DNA of 64,000 nucleotides from Halomonas sp. Its GTDB lineage: Bacteria; Pseudomonadota; Gammaproteobacteria; Pseudomonadales; Halomonadaceae. Of this stretch, positions 10,326 to 50,040 are shown in pieces (the first letter of the stretch is position 1; each line of letters begins with the position of its first letter). Under the pieces are notes generated by a model. The model was not told the origin of the DNA and searched no databases. It saw only the letters and a program-made list of their open reading frames with translations. The stretch lies in assembly GCF_017983445.1 (NCBI RefSeq), contig NZ_JAGOBJ010000003.1, positions 186,001-250,000 on the forward strand, in the 5' to 3' direction. Made by a program: the position numbers and the translations under genes.

Positions 10326-11592
10326 CACGGTTCTCCTGCTGTTCAGCGCGATACTGCTCGACGCGTTTCACTAGTGCGGCGAGCACGGCGCTGGCATCGC
10401 CGATCACAGCCAGATCAGCGCGCTTGACCATGTCGCAGCCTTCATCAAGGTTGACTGCTACTACTTTCTCGCAGCTCTGAATACCCTGCAGGTGCTGGAT
10501 GGCGCCGGAAATTCCTACCGCCACGTAAACACGTGCAGATACCCAGGTGCCGGTGGCGCCTACCTGGCGATCCCGCGGCATAAAGCCGTCGTCCACCGCC
10601 ACGCGTGACGCGCCCTTGGTGGCGCCGAGAACTTCGGCAGCGTGGTGATAGCTGTCCCAATCCTTGACACCGTTACCGGCGGACAGAATGAATTCAGCTT
10701 CAGCGAGCGACACGCTGGCCGGGTCAACCGCCACTTCGCCCATATCCTCGATACGTCCGAGCACATCGGGAAGGCCTTGCGAAAGATTGATCGGCTCAGC
10801 CGCGTGCCGGGTTTCGCTGATCGGGTCGGCGCACTCGGCCAGGGCCAGCACGATACGGGGCAGGGTGCGGGTAATATCGTTTCTACCCGCCGCTCCGCGC
10901 GCGGTACAGTGCCAGCCGGTCGCGCTTTCAGCATCTGCCTCGACCTGCCAGACCTTAGCCGCCGGGCGTTCGCCAAGCCGTGCGGCAAGGCGCCGACCCA
11001 GCTCGCCGCCGACGCTTGAGTCGGGCAGCAGCCAGTAGCGGGGCGCCATTTCACGATCCACGCCCTGCAGGGTGGCAGCGCTAAGCTCCGGCAGATAGCC
11101 CGAGAAGCGCTCGCCTTCCAGATACATTAGCCGGTCAATACCTGCCTCGCCAAAGGCGGTTTCTTTATGTTCGCCAAAGACAATCGCCACCACGGCGCCG
11201 GGCTGTGCCGGGTCAGCGTCGGCCAACTGGCGAGCAAGCCCAAGTAAATCGCGGTCATGGGAGGAAAGGCGCCCGCCGGCCATATCGGGCACCACCGCGA
11301 CCATAAACGCTGGCGTATCGATAACGACTTGGCGCCGTGCGTCCTTGGCTTCTGCACTGCGTCCAGGCGCCTGCGCCTCCTGTTGGGCGCCACTGCGATC
11401 AATACGCCGGATGCCGTTGGGGCCGATGAACCCTACGATGTGAGGGTTGCGGCGCATCACGCCGTTAGGTCCCATCCATTCACTGGCGACTGCGCCGCCG
11501 CCCAATTCGGCCAGCACATCAAGGTGCTGCGGGTGCAGGCGGTTGCGGGCGATCCACTCCCTGCGGGGGTCGCGACGCACAGGTTCGCTCAT
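10315..11592 (-). CDS. etfA: Electron transfer flavoprotein alpha-type subunit
   Basis: Larger ETF subunit, binding FAD through its C-terminal domain (SAGNGVKDWDSYHHAAEVLGATKGAS region, then GATGTWVSARVYVAVGISGAIQH; each stretch is typical of ETF alpha). At 425 aa it is about 100 residues longer than classic ETF alpha, with an extra N-terminal segment ahead of the ETF domain. The ATG overlaps the dgcB stop by 4 bp and has a very strong GAGGAGG inside dgcB. With EtfB it probably carries electrons from dimethylglycine demethylation to the respiratory quinone pool. The homologous gene in P. aeruginosa (PA5400) sits in the same place. Confidence 0.85.
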   Translation of the reverse strand: MSEPVRRDPRREWIARNRLHPQHLDVLAELGGGAVASEWMGPNGVMRRNPHIVGFIGPNGIRRIDRSGAQQEAQAPGRSAEAKDARRQVVIDTPAFMVAVVPDMAGGRLSSHDRDLLGLARQLADADPAQPGAVVAIVFGEHKETAFGEAGIDRLMYLEGERFSGYLPELSAATLQGVDREMAPRYWLLPDSSVGGELGRRLAARLGERPAAKVWQVEADAESATGWHCTARGAAGRNDITRTLPRIVLALAECADPISETRHAAEPINLSQGLPDVLGRIEDMGEVAVDPASVSLAEAEFILSAGNGVKDWDSYHHAAEVLGATKGASRVAVDDGFMPRDRQVGATGTWVSARVYVAVGISGAIQHLQGIQSCEKVVAVNLDEGCDMVKRADLAVIGDASAVLAALVKRVEQYRAEQQENRDAA

Positions 11593-13610
11593 GGCGTTAC
11601 CTCCTCGATGGTGCGCGGTGCTGCTGGCGTGGACTTGCTTTGAGTCGCCTTTTCGTCAGGCGTTTTGATGATCAACGCATCGGCGACCAGTTCGGCGATA
11701 TCCTTGATATCAGCGCGGGGCTCCACAACGCCTTCAAGCATGGCGGTACACTGCGGGCAGCCCACCGCAACCAGGTCAGCACCCGTTTCGCGAACATCTT
11801 CCATACGCATATCGGGGATACGCTGTTTGCCGGGGATATCGGTGATCGGTGCGCCGCCACCACCGCCGCAGCAGCGCGAGCGGTAGCCGGAGCGGGCCAT
11901 CTCTTTCACTTCGATGCCGAGTGCACGGAGTACGTCCCTCGGTGCCTCGTACTCGCCGTTGTAGCGGCCGAGATAACACGGATCGTGATAGGTTACGCTG
12001 CCGCCTTTCCAGGCCTTGAAGGTGAGTTTGCCCGCAACCACCAGCTCGTTGATATAGGTGCTGTGGTGCTGCACATGATAATCAGCGGGCGTCTCCGGCG
12101 TTCCCAGGTCCCCATACTCGTTTTTCAGCACGTGGAAGCTGTGCGGGTCGCAAGTGACGATGCGCGAAAAGCGATACTGGGCAAGCGTTTTGATGTTGCG
12201 CTTGGCTAGGCTCTGGAAGGTGGCCTCATCGCCCAGGCGCCTTGCCACGTCGCCGCTGTCGCGCTCCTCTGTGCCTAGCACGGCAAAGTCGACGTTCGCA
12301 GCACGCAGCACGCTGATAAAGGCGCGCAGGGTGCGTTGGTTGCGCATATCAAACACGCCGTCGCCCAGCCACAGCAGTACTTCGGCTTCGCGCTTGTCGG
12401 CCATCAGCGGCAGGTTCAAATCCGCCGCCCAATGCAGGCGCGAGTCAGGATCAAAGCCGCCGGGGTTATCCGTGGCAATCAGGTTATCCAGTACTTCGGC
12501 GCCCTTGTTAGGTGTGTTGCCGTGCTCCAGGGTCAGAAAGCGGCGCATGTCGACGATGGCATCGACATGCTCGATCATCATCGGACACTCTTCCACGCAG
12601 GCGCGGCAGGTGGTGCACGACCACAGCGTTTCGGCATCGACCAGCGCGCCGCCCGCACGGTTCACAATCGGCCCGTGAGGCGTACCAGCATGCTCACCCA
12701 CCGGCTTGCCGGGATAGGGGGAGCCTACATAGTGGGCGTCGGTGCCGCCAGCCATGCCGACCACCATATCCTGAATCAGCTTCTTGGGGTTGAGCGGCTG
12801 GCCGGCGGCAAAGGCCGGACAAACGGCTTCACAGCGCCCGCACTGGACGCAGGCATCAAAACCCAGCAGCTGATTCCAGGTGAAGTCGGCCGGCACTTCG
12901 ACGCCCAGCTTTGTCCGGTCGTCATCAAGCGCCAGCGGTTTGAGGCCGGTTGAGCGGTGTTCCCCGCCAGCGCGGTTGGAAAAACGCTCCGGGCGACGAT
13001 GGAAGGCCAGATGCAGGGCGCCGGCAAAGGCGTGCTTCATCGGCCCACCCCAGGTCATGCCGAAGAACATCTCGCCCAGGCCCCAGACGATGACCGCGGC
13101 CAGCACTAAGGCAGCGATCCAGCCTAAGCCTTCCTGGAAAACGCCTTCCGGCAGAATACCCGCGGTGGGCAGGGTGACTATGAACATACCGATCGAGAAC
13201 GCCATCAGGCTCTTGGGCAGACGCATCCACGGGCCCTTAGAGAGCCGTGAGGGCGGCGGGCTGCGCCGCTTGGCGACCAGCAGGCTGCCGATGAACATGC
13301 TGGTGGTAGCGGCCAGCAGTACCCAGGCAAGAATGGCGCTGTCCAGGCCAAAGCCGTGGACCACGATAGCCAATAACGCGGCCAGCACAAAGCCGCCGGC
13401 AGTGGCCACGTGGGTGTGGGAAATGTACTTGTCCCGCTCGACGACGTGATGCAGGTCGACCAGATAGCGCCGAGGAACCTGCATCAACCCTTTGATGACG
13501 GGAACGGAAGAGGGGCGCCCCTGGCGCCACAGGCGCACCCGGCGCACGGCACCGATGGCGGCAAGCGCGAGCGCAGAAAACAGTAGGATCGGCAGAAGGG
13601 TATCGAGCAT
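11589..13610 (-). CDS. dgcB: Dimethylglycine catabolism iron-sulfur membrane protein
   Basis: Needed with DgcA for oxidative demethylation of dimethylglycine to sarcosine. From the ATG at 13610 the protein is 673 aa: membrane helices in the first 220 residues, two 4Fe-4S motifs (CVQCGRCEAVCP and CTTCRACVEECP), and a C-terminal cysteine-rich domain with HDPCYLGRYN and a CCGGGGG cluster, as in heterodisulfide-reductase-like proteins. A longer in-frame start at 13652 is less likely because GAGGAGAG lies just before 13610. The layout suggests a membrane-bound electron conduit between DgcA, the ETF and quinone. Overlaps etfA by 4 bp. Confidence 0.9.
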   Translation of the reverse strand: MLDTLLPILLFSALALAAIGAVRRVRLWRQGRPSSVPVIKGLMQVPRRYLVDLHHVVERDKYISHTHVATAGGFVLAALLAIVVHGFGLDSAILAWVLLAATTSMFIGSLLVAKRRSPPPSRLSKGPWMRLPKSLMAFSIGMFIVTLPTAGILPEGVFQEGLGWIAALVLAAVIVWGLGEMFFGMTWGGPMKHAFAGALHLAFHRRPERFSNRAGGEHRSTGLKPLALDDDRTKLGVEVPADFTWNQLLGFDACVQCGRCEAVCPAFAAGQPLNPKKLIQDMVVGMAGGTDAHYVGSPYPGKPVGEHAGTPHGPIVNRAGGALVDAETLWSCTTCRACVEECPMMIEHVDAIVDMRRFLTLEHGNTPNKGAEVLDNLIATDNPGGFDPDSRLHWAADLNLPLMADKREAEVLLWLGDGVFDMRNQRTLRAFISVLRAANVDFAVLGTEERDSGDVARRLGDEATFQSLAKRNIKTLAQYRFSRIVTCDPHSFHVLKNEYGDLGTPETPADYHVQHHSTYINELVVAGKLTFKAWKGGSVTYHDPCYLGRYNGEYEAPRDVLRALGIEVKEMARSGYRSRCCGGGGGAPITDIPGKQRIPDMRMEDVRETGADLVAVGCPQCTAMLEGVVEPRADIKDIAELVADALIIKTPDEKATQSKSTPAAPRTIEEVTP

Positions 13611-13644
13611 GGCGTCTCTCCTCTCAGAGACACCGTAAGTACAA

Positions 13645-13674
13645 AACGTCATGAGCCGGATGGCCCATGACGTT
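13645..13674 (-). terminator. Intercistronic hairpin between dgcA and dgcB
   Basis: AACGTCATG (13645-13653) / CATGACGTT (13666-13674) with further inner pairing GCC/GGC. On the minus strand it is followed by TTGTAC, not a clear U tract. It could be a partial terminator or an mRNA stabiliser that adjusts DgcA relative to DgcB. Confidence 0.55.
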
Positions 13675-46959: not shown

Positions 46960-47064
46960 GGCAGTATATCGCTACGCGAGCCGTGAGGCGGGGATTCGTT
47001 TCATGGTAACAGTAAACGTGTCGATGTCGTTGTGCTGTGATGTCGCAGGCCATAAGGAAACCCC

Positions 47065-47979
47065 ATGGAGAGTATTACCGCTGCGTTAGGCCCACTGTTT
47101 CTTTTGATACTTTTTGGTGCAGCACTGGGCTACTGGCGTTGGCCGGGTACGGATTTTTGGCCGCAGATGGAGCGGTTAATCTACTTTGTGCTTTTCCCGG
47201 CCATGCTGGTCGGCACGCTGGCAACCGCGGATGTAAGCCAGGTGCCGGTAGGGCGCCTAGCGTTGGTGCTACTTGGCGCAATGACACTATTTGGCCTGCT
47301 GATCTGGCGCTTGCGACATTTGCTAAAGCTCACGCCCGCCGCGTTTACTTCGGTGTTTCAGGGCGCGGTACGTTTCAATACCTATGTGGGCGTGGCGGGA
47401 GCAGCTGCGCTACACGGGGAGCTGGGTGCGACCACCGCGGCGGTTGCCGTAGCGCTGATGGTACCTGTGGTCAATGTGATGTGCGTGGCAAGCTTCGTCG
47501 CTGCCGGGACATTGGGCAGTGCCAGTATGGGGAAAAGCGTGATGGCGCTGGTGAAAAACCCGCTGATACTCGCTTGTCTGGCAGGCATTGCGTTAAACCT
47601 GACCGGTATTGGCTTGCCAGGGTGGAGCCAGGATACCGTGGGCCTTCTGGGACGGGCCGCCTTACCGCTGGGGCTGATTGCCGTGGGGGTTGCCCTGCGC
47701 CCGACAGCGCTATTACGGATCGACCGCGGCCTACTCGCCACCAACAGCATCAAGCTAATGCTAATGCCCGCGCTGGTATTGGCGCTGGCGTGGACGTTAG
47801 GGCTGGACACGGTTAGCCGAGACGTTGCGCTGCTGTTTGCGGCACTCCCGACCGCCACCTCAGCCTATATTCTAGCCCGACAGTTAGGCGGTGATGCCGA
47901 GCTGATGGCGGCGATTATCACCGGCCAAACGTTGCTCGCCATGTTCACTTTACCCCTATGGCTACAGCTTGCTGGATAG
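47065..47979 (+). CDS. AEC family (auxin efflux carrier-like) transporter
   Basis: A 304-aa inner-membrane carrier with ten predicted helices, in two halves. Family marks: FLLILFGAALGYWRW near the N-terminus, FNTYVGVAGAAAL near 103, and the second half LATNSIKLMLMPALVLAL near 227. Bacterial AEC proteins move malate, malonate or other anions; the ligand here is unknown. Confidence 0.83.
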   Translation: MESITAALGPLFLLILFGAALGYWRWPGTDFWPQMERLIYFVLFPAMLVGTLATADVSQVPVGRLALVLLGAMTLFGLLIWRLRHLLKLTPAAFTSVFQGAVRFNTYVGVAGAAALHGELGATTAAVAVALMVPVVNVMCVASFVAAGTLGSASMGKSVMALVKNPLILACLAGIALNLTGIGLPGWSQDTVGLLGRAALPLGLIAVGVALRPTALLRIDRGLLATNSIKLMLMPALVLALAWTLGLDTVSRDVALLFAALPTATSAYILARQLGGDAELMAAIITGQTLLAMFTLPLWLQLAG

Positions 47980-48001
47980 TTTGTAAAAATAAATAAAAAG
48001 T

Positions 48002-48034
48002 ATTCGCATTTGTATTGACGCGCTTAATGCGAAT
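48002..48034. promoter_or_regulatory. 9-bp inverted repeat around the -35 box
   Basis: ATTCGCATT (48002-48010) and AATGCGAAT (48026-48034) are exact inverted copies, 15 nt apart, flanking the predicted -35 hexamer of the small RNA. Likely an operator. Confidence 0.55.
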
Positions 48035-48043
48035 GATTATATT
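48015..48043 (+). promoter_or_regulatory. Sigma-70 promoter with Fur-like box
   Basis: TTGACG (48015-48020), 17-bp spacer, TATATT (48038-48043). Over the -10 region, TGCGAATGATTATAT (48028-48042) matches the Fur 7-1-7 model TGATAAT-n-ATTATCA at 10 of 14 positions. Expected start near 48050. Confidence 0.65.
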
Positions 48044-48049
48044 GTGATT

Positions 48050-48169
48050 GTAGCGTTTAATGAGTCGCTACAGACCACGACAACAAGCCGCCAGTTTGCT
48101 GTCATGGTTTCTCCCTCTCATTGCTAGTCACGGTCTTTTGCCACTCCATTGGAGTGGCTTTCTTTTTTT
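48050..48169 (+). ncRNA. Candidate small regulatory RNA
   Basis: About 120 nt, no start codon with a ribosome site. Predicted parts: hairpin 1 GTAGCG (48050-48055) / CGCTAC (48066-48071); hairpin 2, ACCACGACAAC (48074-48084) with GCTGTCATGGT (48098-48108), 9 of 11 pairs; a single-stranded pyrimidine-rich stretch TTTCTCCCTCTC (48108-48119) complementary to Shine-Dalgarno sequences, followed by CATTGC; and an intrinsic terminator. This is the layout of an Hfq-dependent trans-acting RNA. The Fur-like box upstream makes an iron-stress role (as RyhB/PrrF) plausible; sequence identity to those RNAs is not claimed. Confidence 0.6.
48140..48169 (+). terminator. Strong intrinsic terminator of the small RNA
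   Basis: Perfect 8-bp stem GCCACTCC / GGAGTGGC, loop ATT, then TTTCTTTTTTT. Confidence 0.92.
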
Positions 48170-48294
48170 GAGCCCCAGAAATTAAAATGATGCAGTGCTG
48201 CAGGCTGTTGAACGCCTGCTAAAAGCACAGGCACTTTCTAAGCGTCTACACTCATGCGTTCACCCGTTTTCACGCCTTGAATATTGGTACCCCC

Positions 48295-48432
48295 ATGGCC
48301 CACCAGAAACCGCACCTTCCAACGAAAATATGCCCGGTTTGTGAGCGCCCCTTTACGTGGCGTAAGAAATGGGCCCGGGATTGGGAGAACGTCGTCTACT
48401 GCTCGCAGCGGTGTCGACGTCAGGGCGTGTAA
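48295..48432 (+). CDS. DUF2256 family small zinc-finger-like protein
   Basis: A 45-aa protein with four cysteines in two pairs: CPVC (13, 16) and CSQRC (36, 40), and the family pattern [13 protein letters not shown] between. DUF2256 proteins are short and of unknown function, often near DNA photolyase/cryptochrome genes elsewhere. No clear ribosome binding site precedes the ATG. It ends before the bidirectional terminator shared with trmB. Confidence 0.85.
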
Positions 48433-48452
48433 TGCATCGGTGGGCTAGGGCG

Positions 48453-48477
48453 AAAAGCCGTCAATCTGACGGCTTTT
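48453..48477. terminator. Bidirectional terminator DUF2256 / trmB
   Basis: Perfect 11-bp stem AAAAGCCGTCA / TGACGGCTTTT, loop ATC, between convergent genes. Confidence 0.9.
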
Positions 48478-48496
48478 AACGAGAGCGTCTGGCTGA

Positions 48497-49240
48497 TTAA
48501 AGCGTTTTGCGATAAATCAGATCCCACACGCCATGGCCCAGCTTCTCGCCGCGGGCTTCAAACTTGGTCAGCGGGCGGAAGGTGGGGCGGGGCACGTAAG
48601 GTGCTGTGTCGGCATCGGCCGTATTAGCGTAGCCGGGGGCGGCTTCCATTACCTCGGCCATCCACTCCGCATAGGCTTCCCAGTCGGTCGCCATGTGGAA
48701 GGTGCCGCCGGGTTTCAGACGGGTACGAATCAGCTCTACAAACGCGGGCTGCACAATGCGCCGCTTGTGGTGCTTTTTCTTCGGCCAGGGGTCGGGGAAG
48801 AACAGCTGCACGGTGGTCAGCGAGCCTTCCGGCAGGCACTTCTCCAATACGGCCAGAGCATCTTCCTTGTAGATACGCAGGTTGGTAAGCCCGCGCTTGT
48901 CCACTTCATCCAGCAGCTTGCCGACACCCGGCGAATGCACTTCGATACCGATAAAGTCGGTGTCCGGGTGGGTTTCGGCCTGCTCGATCAGCGAATTGCC
49001 CATGCCAAAACCGATTTCAACCACGCGAGAGGCTTCCCGGCCAAACAGCGCGGTCAGATCCTGCAGGCCATCGTCAATCGTCAAGCCAAAGCGCGGCCAT
49101 ACGTCTTCAAGGCCCCGGTTCTGGGCCTGGGTCATGCGCCCGGCACGAATTACATAGCTTTTAATACCGCGACGATGCAGCGGCGCTTCAGCGCTTTCTG
49201 GCCCGGTTGAAGACTCATCGGTACTTTTAATATCAGTCAT
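48497..49240 (-). CDS. trmB: tRNA (guanine-N7-)-methyltransferase
   Basis: SAM-dependent enzyme methylating G46 in the tRNA variable loop. 247 aa with [11 protein letters not shown] (SAM motif, near 71), [16 protein letters not shown] (near 147) and AFVELI. Start 8 bp after thiG, which is upstream on the same strand, so thiS-thiG-trmB form one operon, an order also found in pseudomonads. Confidence 0.95.
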
Positions 49241-49248
49241 AAAATCTC

Positions 49249-50040
49249 TTAACCGTTAATGCGGCCAGCAAAAGGTGATGATGGGTCTGCCGTTTGGCGA
49301 CGCGGCATGCGTCCGGCCAGGAACGCATCGCGCCCCGCTTCTACGGCATTTCTCATGGCACGCGCCATGCGCAACGGCTCACGCGCGTGGGCAATCGCCG
49401 TATTGAGCAGTACACCGTCGCAACCCAGCTCCATGGCCATGGCGGCGTCGGATGCCGTGCCGATACCGGCATCAACCAGCACCGGTACGCTGCTTTGCTC
49501 AACAATCAGGCGCACGTTGTGCGGGTTCTGAATGCCGTGGCCCGAGCCGATCAGCGAGCCCAGCGGCATGATGGCGCAGCACCCCATGGCTTCAAGTTCG
49601 CGGGCTACAATGGGGTCGTCGCTGGTGTACACCATGACGTCAAAGCCATCGGCCAAGAGCGTTTCGGCGGCTTTCAGAGTTTCGACCACGTTGGGGTAGA
49701 GCGTGGTCTCATCACCCAGCACTTCCAGCTTGACCAGATTGTGGCCATCCAGCAGCTCACGAGCCAGGCGACAGGTGCGCACGGCGTCTTTAACGGTGTA
49801 GCAGCCTGCCGTATTGGGCAACAGGGTGTAGCGCGACGGCGAAATCACGTCAAGCAGGTTGGGCCCGGCTTCCTGCCCCAGGTTGGTGCGGCGTACGGCA
49901 AAGGTGACGATCTCGGCGCCGCTTTCAGCAATCGCCGCGCCGGTCTCGTCGAAATCTTTATATTTGCCGGTGCCGACCAGCAGGCGAGAGCTGAAGTCGC
50001 GGCCAGCAATGGTAAACGGCGTATCGTTTTGAAATGTCAT
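49249..50040 (-). CDS. thiG: Thiazole synthase
   Basis: Forms the thiazole phosphate of thiamin from deoxyxylulose phosphate, dehydroglycine and ThiS-thiocarboxylate. TIM barrel, 263 aa; the Schiff-base lysine is in [10 protein letters not shown] near 97-106, and [13 protein letters not shown] and [19 protein letters not shown] bind phosphate. Downstream of thiS by 79 bp. Confidence 0.95.

Follow-up and report, generated by a model that had tools for sequence, protein, structure and literature searches.

The window analysed here, a 64-kb stretch of Halomonas sp. DNA, holds a 315-bp gap (47980-48294) between the gene of an AEC carrier (Mem_trans, PF03547) and that of a DUF2256 protein (PF10013). 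Does this gap contain a small RNA gene and, if so, of which kind? A sequence-only reading had described the gap and its two flanking genes and had placed in it a promoter, a Fur-like box, an inverted repeat, a terminator and a C/U-rich stretch; the gap, the PF03547 and PF10013 matches and each of these elements were confirmed in position. PrrF is the small RNA by which Pseudomonas saves iron under scarcity. The explanation that we favour, with high confidence, is an unannotated gene for a distant PrrF-family small RNA that would be Fur-controlled and iron-sparing, with sdhC, the first of the genes for succinate dehydrogenase, as its best-supported predicted target.

Layout of the locus

Conservation was followed in 100 full copies, 99 of them distinct, from 84 loci of 81 genomes. 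The PrrF-type RNA would occupy 48050-48167 of the forward strand, its 5' end being placed from the promoter and its 3' end from the terminator. Upstream, an A-rich AATAAAAA (47992-47999, forward strand), which may serve as an UP element, is identical at each position in 98-99 of the 99 distinct copies. It is followed by ATTCGCATTT (48002-48011), the left arm of the inverted repeat and a probable inverted Fur half-site (compare AAATGAGAAT), conserved except at 48007, where 55 of these copies have C and 44 have T. The sigma-70 type promoter TTGACG-17-TATATT (48015-48043, forward strand) has a -35 element that is nearly invariant in the 99 copies, and a Fur-like box with the copy consensus AAATGAGAATNATTA (48023-48041), likewise conserved, covers its spacer and -10 element. 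The transcribed part begins with helix 1 (48051-48055 with 48066-48070), enclosing a loop AATGAG (48059-48064) that is complementary to the seed CTCATT (whole element 48051-48070), and continues with helix 2 (48073-48083 with 48099-48109; 48073-48109). Next come the nearly invariant C/U-rich seed region GGTTTCTCCCTCTCATTGC (48106-48124; the C/U-rich stretch proper at 48108-48124) and the core TTGCTAGTCACGGTC (48121-48135), in which each position is again identical in 98-99 of the 99 copies. The intrinsic terminator (48140-48168) combines helix 3 with a T run, and its hairpin (48140-48158) has 8 pairs and a 3-nt loop; all of these transcribed elements lie on the forward strand. Across the 99 distinct copies, 48099-48142 is nearly invariant.

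The near-ideal promoter and the perfect 8-bp terminator of the sequence-only reading are both there, but neither is remarkable on its own: the promoter pattern alone occurred at chance level (1 in 2.5 kb against a shuffle mean of 1.0), and terminator-like sites alone were near it (4 found against a shuffle mean of 2.9). The Fur-like box does lie over the -10 and is conserved in the copies, but its 19-mer at 48023 agrees with a Fur consensus at 13 of 19 positions, a best score tied with four other window positions. By eye, some loci of other families (L126, L129 and L136 among them) match more closely at the equivalent position. The 9-bp inverted repeat flanking the -35 does exist, yet only in the window's clade is it perfect: 48030 is C in 7 of the 99 distinct copies and A in 92. 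The locus stands above chance because it is conserved, with a match in 82 of 82 genus genomes and near invariance at 48099-48142, and because its structure covaries. The promoter and terminator conserved across copies point to transcription and termination, and the site over the promoter to control by Fur. The predicted transcript has a U-rich tail, on which Hfq would probably act.

That no coding frame explains the gap had also been claimed, and the one frame tested, of 41 aa from the ATG in the first loop, gave the same answer. A small protein gene would account for the near invariance of this ATG (48060), but no ribosome-binding site was apparent by eye and the gap lengths in the alignment are not divisible by three. 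The frame stops after 3-39 aa in 47 of the 99 copies, runs through the terminator for 38-45 aa in 49 and is absent in 3. This small ORF was rejected as an exceedingly improbable explanation.

Identity and distribution

When 2.5 kb around the gap were searched with cmscan, PrrF (RF00444) was matched at 48015-48167 over positions 1-150 of the 150-position model (37.5 bits, E 0.00039); when the whole window was compared with Rfam, PrrF scored E 0.01 and nothing else reached E<=1. The window copy falls short of the Rfam gathering score for RF00444 (90 bits), as did every copy scanned with this model, whether from the genus, other genera or other families. PrrF was recognised in 15 of 16 genus loci (19 matches, 35.8-47.3 bits; L053 without) and, beyond the genus, in 18 of the 20 loci scanned, which came from other genera and families (29 matches, 35.6-84.4 bits; L135 and L139 without). 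Because the scores grade continuously, we read the sub-threshold score as divergence from a Pseudomonas-centred model. Loci outside the genus had been found with a second model, R1, made from the genus copies minus the promoter, which matches the window at 48046-48167 (forward strand; transcribed part alone). As R1 was built without the promoter and RF00444 matches at the same places, two independent models agree. When RF00444 was run against the host genome, two weak places elsewhere came up and the window locus did not; as this run passed over the locus, its first look is no evidence of absence.

The sequence-only reading had recognised the architecture of a trans-acting RNA such as RyhB or PrrF, which sequence evidence now supports well, and had suggested that, for want of clear sequence identity to these, it might be a lineage-specific RNA. 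An unrelated iron RNA that resembles PrrF through convergence only would fit the score under the Rfam threshold, and a seed and first loop unlike those of other genera. The full-length match, the intermediate loci reaching 84.4 bits, and a core GCTARTCACGGT and neighbourhood common to five other genera argue against it. In the alignment, the core common to other genera reads TCATCAAGCTARTCACGGT and that of the window's genus TCTCATTGCTAGTCACGGT. The graded intermediates largely refute the idea of an unrelated RNA, which we regard as very unlikely. Judged from sequence, the locus is a real and conserved small RNA gene and a divergent member of the PrrF family, not the founder of a new one, and is of an ordinary kind in a new place.

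All 82 genomes examined of the genus, which we infer to be Vreelandella, had a match in a DNA search (E<=0.01). One protein of the window is 99% identical to its counterpart in V. zhanjiangensis. With R1, matches were obtained in 241 of 250 genomes of the family, 236 of them at E<=2.9e-5 and five (G083, G121, G132, G152, G168) doubtful at 5e-4 to 0.0075, values at which the order also gave some false matches. Among the nine family genomes without a match, the six of genus g5 all contain TCATCAAGCTAATCACGGT and G098, G142 and G256 do not; G098 was also the only genome without an Sdh_cyt match. In the order, R1 matched 29 of 293 genomes at E<=0.01, a lower bound because R1 is narrow; 12 of these belong to the family, and the core is present in 13 of the remaining 17. 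Four loci outside the family (L135, L139, L140, L142) were dropped, as their R1 match lay only around the terminator by alignment. L135, which R1 had reached via the terminator, contains a GcvB-like match at 1451-1611 (34.3 bits, cut-off 42).

Gene order was also retained. Within the stretch examined around each copy, 79 of 84 genus loci had the carrier gene, and all 7 loci from five other genera had the carrier gene, trmB or both. Neither was found within the stretch in the six g5 loci or in the loci of more distant families, so that just a part of the family gives evidence of inheritance in place. With the carrier and DUF2256 genes to either side on the same strand, the locus could also be read as a cis-acting leader or attenuator that controls DUF2256, or as the 3' end of the transcript from the carrier gene. 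Either is highly improbable, given that the locus is bounded by a promoter and a terminator of its own, spreads as one piece into tandem copies and looks the same where another gene lies downstream. At the e-value applied, DUF2256 was found in only 7 of 84 genus loci, possibly an undercount for so short a protein. Homology to PrrF, conservation, structure, gene order, and complementarity to sdhC with its own conservation were all shown by computation.

RNA structure and the first loop

A covariance search in relatives had been set beforehand as a test of the sequence-only reading, and it found both seed and hairpins conserved, in its favour. Covariation was scored in 37 copies picked for diversity from 96 distinct transcribed parts. 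Over the three helices, 98.2% of cells were paired and two-sided changes were found in 9 of 23 pairs: at 5 of 6 pairs in helix 1, at 2 of 10 in helix 2 (98.3% of cells paired) and at 2 of 7 in helix 3, where all sequences with letters on both sides were paired. Shuffles gave 14.2 cells with two-sided changes and slid versions of the structure no more than 3, compared with 53 in the actual alignment; the covariation score was 0.228, against 0.145 for shuffles and at most 0.066 for slid versions. The number of pair types was not in excess over shuffles (268/500). The predicted fold of the transcript was better than that of shuffled sequences (z -4.3; 0 of 200 as good).

Two hairpins with an exposed C/U stretch had been proposed. 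The helices do covary, but the minimum-energy fold pairs loop 1 with the seed and lacks hairpin 1. This first loop is RATGAG in 93 of the 96 distinct transcribed parts, and GATGAG in all 20 copies compared from genus g20 (18 loci; the pattern missed three of 20 loci). The seed CTCATT accompanies the RATGAG or GATGAG loop; the other genera compared have CTCATC as their seed and lack a stretch of this kind in the loop. In partition functions of 91 RNAs, the mean probability was 0.39 for the loop-seed helix and 0.57 for helix 1. These probabilities suggest a seed that might hide itself. At L044, L053, L082 (1500-1760) and L071, insertions of variable length were observed between the seed CTCATT and GCTAGTCACGG, as if two pairing modules could be split.

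Extra and tandem copies

More than one copy was present in 27 of the 82 genus genomes: 18 had two and 3 had three copies with a matched promoter part, and 6 had promoterless units (G063 being counted from one match in the genus search and not from a fetched locus). The copies were clustered in 26 of the 82 genomes, those of G026 lying on different contigs. In the three-copy genome G055, the promoter part is degenerate in the second and third copies. The six genomes with promoterless units carry one complete copy followed by one to four units that match from about position 46-51 and lack promoter and Fur box; four such units were found in G048, three in G043 and G002, two in G080 and G078 and one in G064. 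These seed-and-terminator arrays were observed at L022, L023, L024, L025, L028 and L074.

A scenario that we put forward only tentatively, as rather unlikely in its entirety, is that Vreelandella and one sister genus gained the new seed CTCATT together with the complementary loop RATGAG, so that the RNA could switch between two forms, one open with hairpin 1 formed and one closed with the seed hidden. In some species, one Fur-controlled promoter would feed up to five seed-terminator units, with read-through setting the dose and making multi-seed, PrrH-like RNAs.

Two side observations concern extra copies. In another family, L132 (G505) holds five PrrF-type copies with the promoter part, about 277 nt apart. 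In G026, an ALIL pseudoknot (RF01497, 116 bits) lies at 404-520 of L077, near the second PrrF copy; ALIL-type frameshift elements belong to insertion sequences, so this copy may have moved with one.

Predicted targets

The invariant TTGCTAGTCACGG was searched against the host genome (3.9 Mb) without regard to any gene. Its complement occurred once with no mismatch, in the RNA gene itself, and once with one mismatch, at the GTG start of sdhC; for CCGTGACTAGCAA, too, the sdhC start was the only 1-mismatch complement in the host genome besides the RNA gene. Core complements were generally not enriched there (50 at <=2 mismatches, where the reversed control gave 154). The predicted duplex joins UUGCUA and UCACGG of the RNA to UAGCAA and CCGUGA of the mRNA, either side of one mismatch and over the GUG start codon. 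The site, CCGTGANTAGYAA, is present in 50 of 53 sdhC loci examined (25 of the genus, 28 of other genera; L170-L194 and L260-L287); all 53 genes start with GTG, with GCC just before, and this unusual start fits the pairing site.

Codon usage was counted in all 53 loci, not conditioned on the site. Codons 2-4 of sdhC are near-fixed among 52 sequences (Asn: AAT 51, AAC 1; Ser: AGC 49, AGT 3; Lys: AAA 52), and the Ser codon AGT keeps a G-U pair with the RNA core. Codons 8-11 vary freely (Asn-8: AAT 16, AAC 35; Asp-10: GAC 26, GAT 25), and a control gene start showed synonymous variation from codon 2. Such start-region conservation can arise for translation alone.

Duplex energies were compared with those of 185 background ORFs, taken partly from loci chosen for near-complements of seed or core. 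None of the 185 first starts equalled the core-sdhC duplex (-19.2 kcal/mol), and a single one of 185 did so when any start was allowed. For the whole 34-nt region sdhC was not outstanding, being equalled or surpassed by 16 of 185 first starts and by 52 of 185 with any start. Among 25 genus loci, taken without the weaker second Sdh_cyt matches, the best 34-nt duplex covers the sdhC start in 21; in the host the best one falls in another part of the sdhC leader. sodB was unsupported as a target by duplex predictions: its core duplex reached -6.1 kcal/mol, 160 of 185 background starts were at least as good, and no conserved or strong predicted site was found in the 21 loci examined (5 of 26 left out).

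The anti-Shine-Dalgarno C/U stretch that the sequence-only reading had emphasised is present and nearly invariant at 48108-48124, but it is not the best-supported pairing site; the GCUAGUCACGG core beside it has the unique, conserved site on the sdhC start codon. A target search with the seed, which had been suggested, gave no enrichment of near-complements in the host genome (45 at <=2 mismatches, where the reversed control gave 50). Could the RNA nevertheless act mainly through the seed, by masking Shine-Dalgarno sequences, with sdhC as a minor target? Good seed sites were predicted at the starts of a hemerythrin-domain gene and a 4Fe-4S oxidoreductase gene, and GGGAGAAACC precedes petA (Rieske protein) in 28 of 30 other-species loci examined, so that sites at these three genes are suggestive. 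The genome-wide lack of enrichment counts against a main role of the seed, as does the host petA, which lacks GGGAGAAACC and offers just 7 contiguous pairs. The oxidoreductase gene (11592-13652, reverse strand; inner-ATG form 11592-13610) encodes DUF3483, 4Fe-4S and CCG domains, and we take its product to resemble DgcB. The site in its ribosome-binding region (13611-13630, reverse strand) would be a weak, possible secondary target, with -17.2 kcal/mol for pairing with the seed and presence in 8 of 80 homologous loci. We therefore hold a mainly seed-based action to be unlikely, and sdhC most likely remains the best-supported predicted target of the PrrF-type RNA.

In P. aeruginosa, sdhCDAB is listed among the PrrF-affected genes in PMC2851614; by analogy with PrrF, repression and decay of the sdhCDAB mRNA may be inferred here. 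Most likely, the RNA would serve to spare iron: repressed by Fur and probably dependent on Hfq, it would turn down sdhCDAB along with other mRNAs for iron proteins. With ample iron, Fe-Fur would occupy the promoter and silence the gene. When it is scarce, an RNA of ~118 nt would be made and end at its own terminator; probably with Hfq on its U-rich tail, it would pair through the single strand between helix 2 and the terminator with mRNAs, around their starts, that encode iron proteins the cell can spare, and these mRNAs would no longer be translated and would decay.

Comparison with known RNAs

The open-licence literature yielded no description of a PrrF native to Halomonas, Vreelandella, Chromohalobacter or Oceanospirillales, supplements (e.g. 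unannotated Fur-RNA candidates, PMC2527527) being outside the scope. New for the PrrF family are the changed seed, the seed-complementary loop and the extra copies in 27 of 82 genomes, six of them with promoterless tandem units. As the Halomonadaceae copies scanned fall under the curated Rfam cut-off, annotation would miss iron-sparing control in halophiles, among them biotechnology hosts. In two reviews and one paper, P. aeruginosa PrrF1 is described as a synthetic-RNA scaffold in Halomonas bluephagenesis; as relatives of hosts of this type carry their own PrrF, cross-talk with the scaffold is conceivable.

The locus resembles PrrF1 and PrrF2 of Pseudomonas in its full-length model match, which includes the promoter, the order of hairpins and the single-stranded core before the terminator, as well as in the Fur-like site over the promoter, sdh as a predicted target and the tendency to duplicate. 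Its inferred length of about 118 nt compares with 116 and 114 nt given for PrrF1 and PrrF2 in PMC2851614. Unlike them, the window copy scores below the Rfam cut-off, is single and has no predicted site on sodB, a known PrrF target. The seed is ATCTCCTCATCAAGCTARTCACGG in PrrF of other genera and families and TTTCTCCCTCTCATTGCTAGTCACGG in the window, where the first loop is complementary to it.

RyhB of enterobacteria is alike by inference, in Fur control, iron sparing and sdh; it had no Rfam match at E<=10 in 47000-49500. PMC4211561 describes PrrF and RyhB as sharing no sequence homology. ArrF (Azotobacter), NrrF (Neisseria) and BrrF (Burkholderia) are presented in PMC2851614 and PMC7377471 as iron-responsive RNAs with similar targets, and we liken them to the window RNA by description. 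PrrH of P. aeruginosa finds a parallel in the six genus genomes whose downstream tandem units could be reached only by terminator read-through. Unlike the PrrH arrangement, their downstream units have no promoter or Fur box and number up to four per promoter, and the window itself has a single copy. Tandem prrF genes are called nearly exclusive to P. aeruginosa in PMC2851614 and PMC4211561. The clustered copies in 26 of 82 genomes provide natural variants in which the role of read-through RNAs such as PrrH can be approached.
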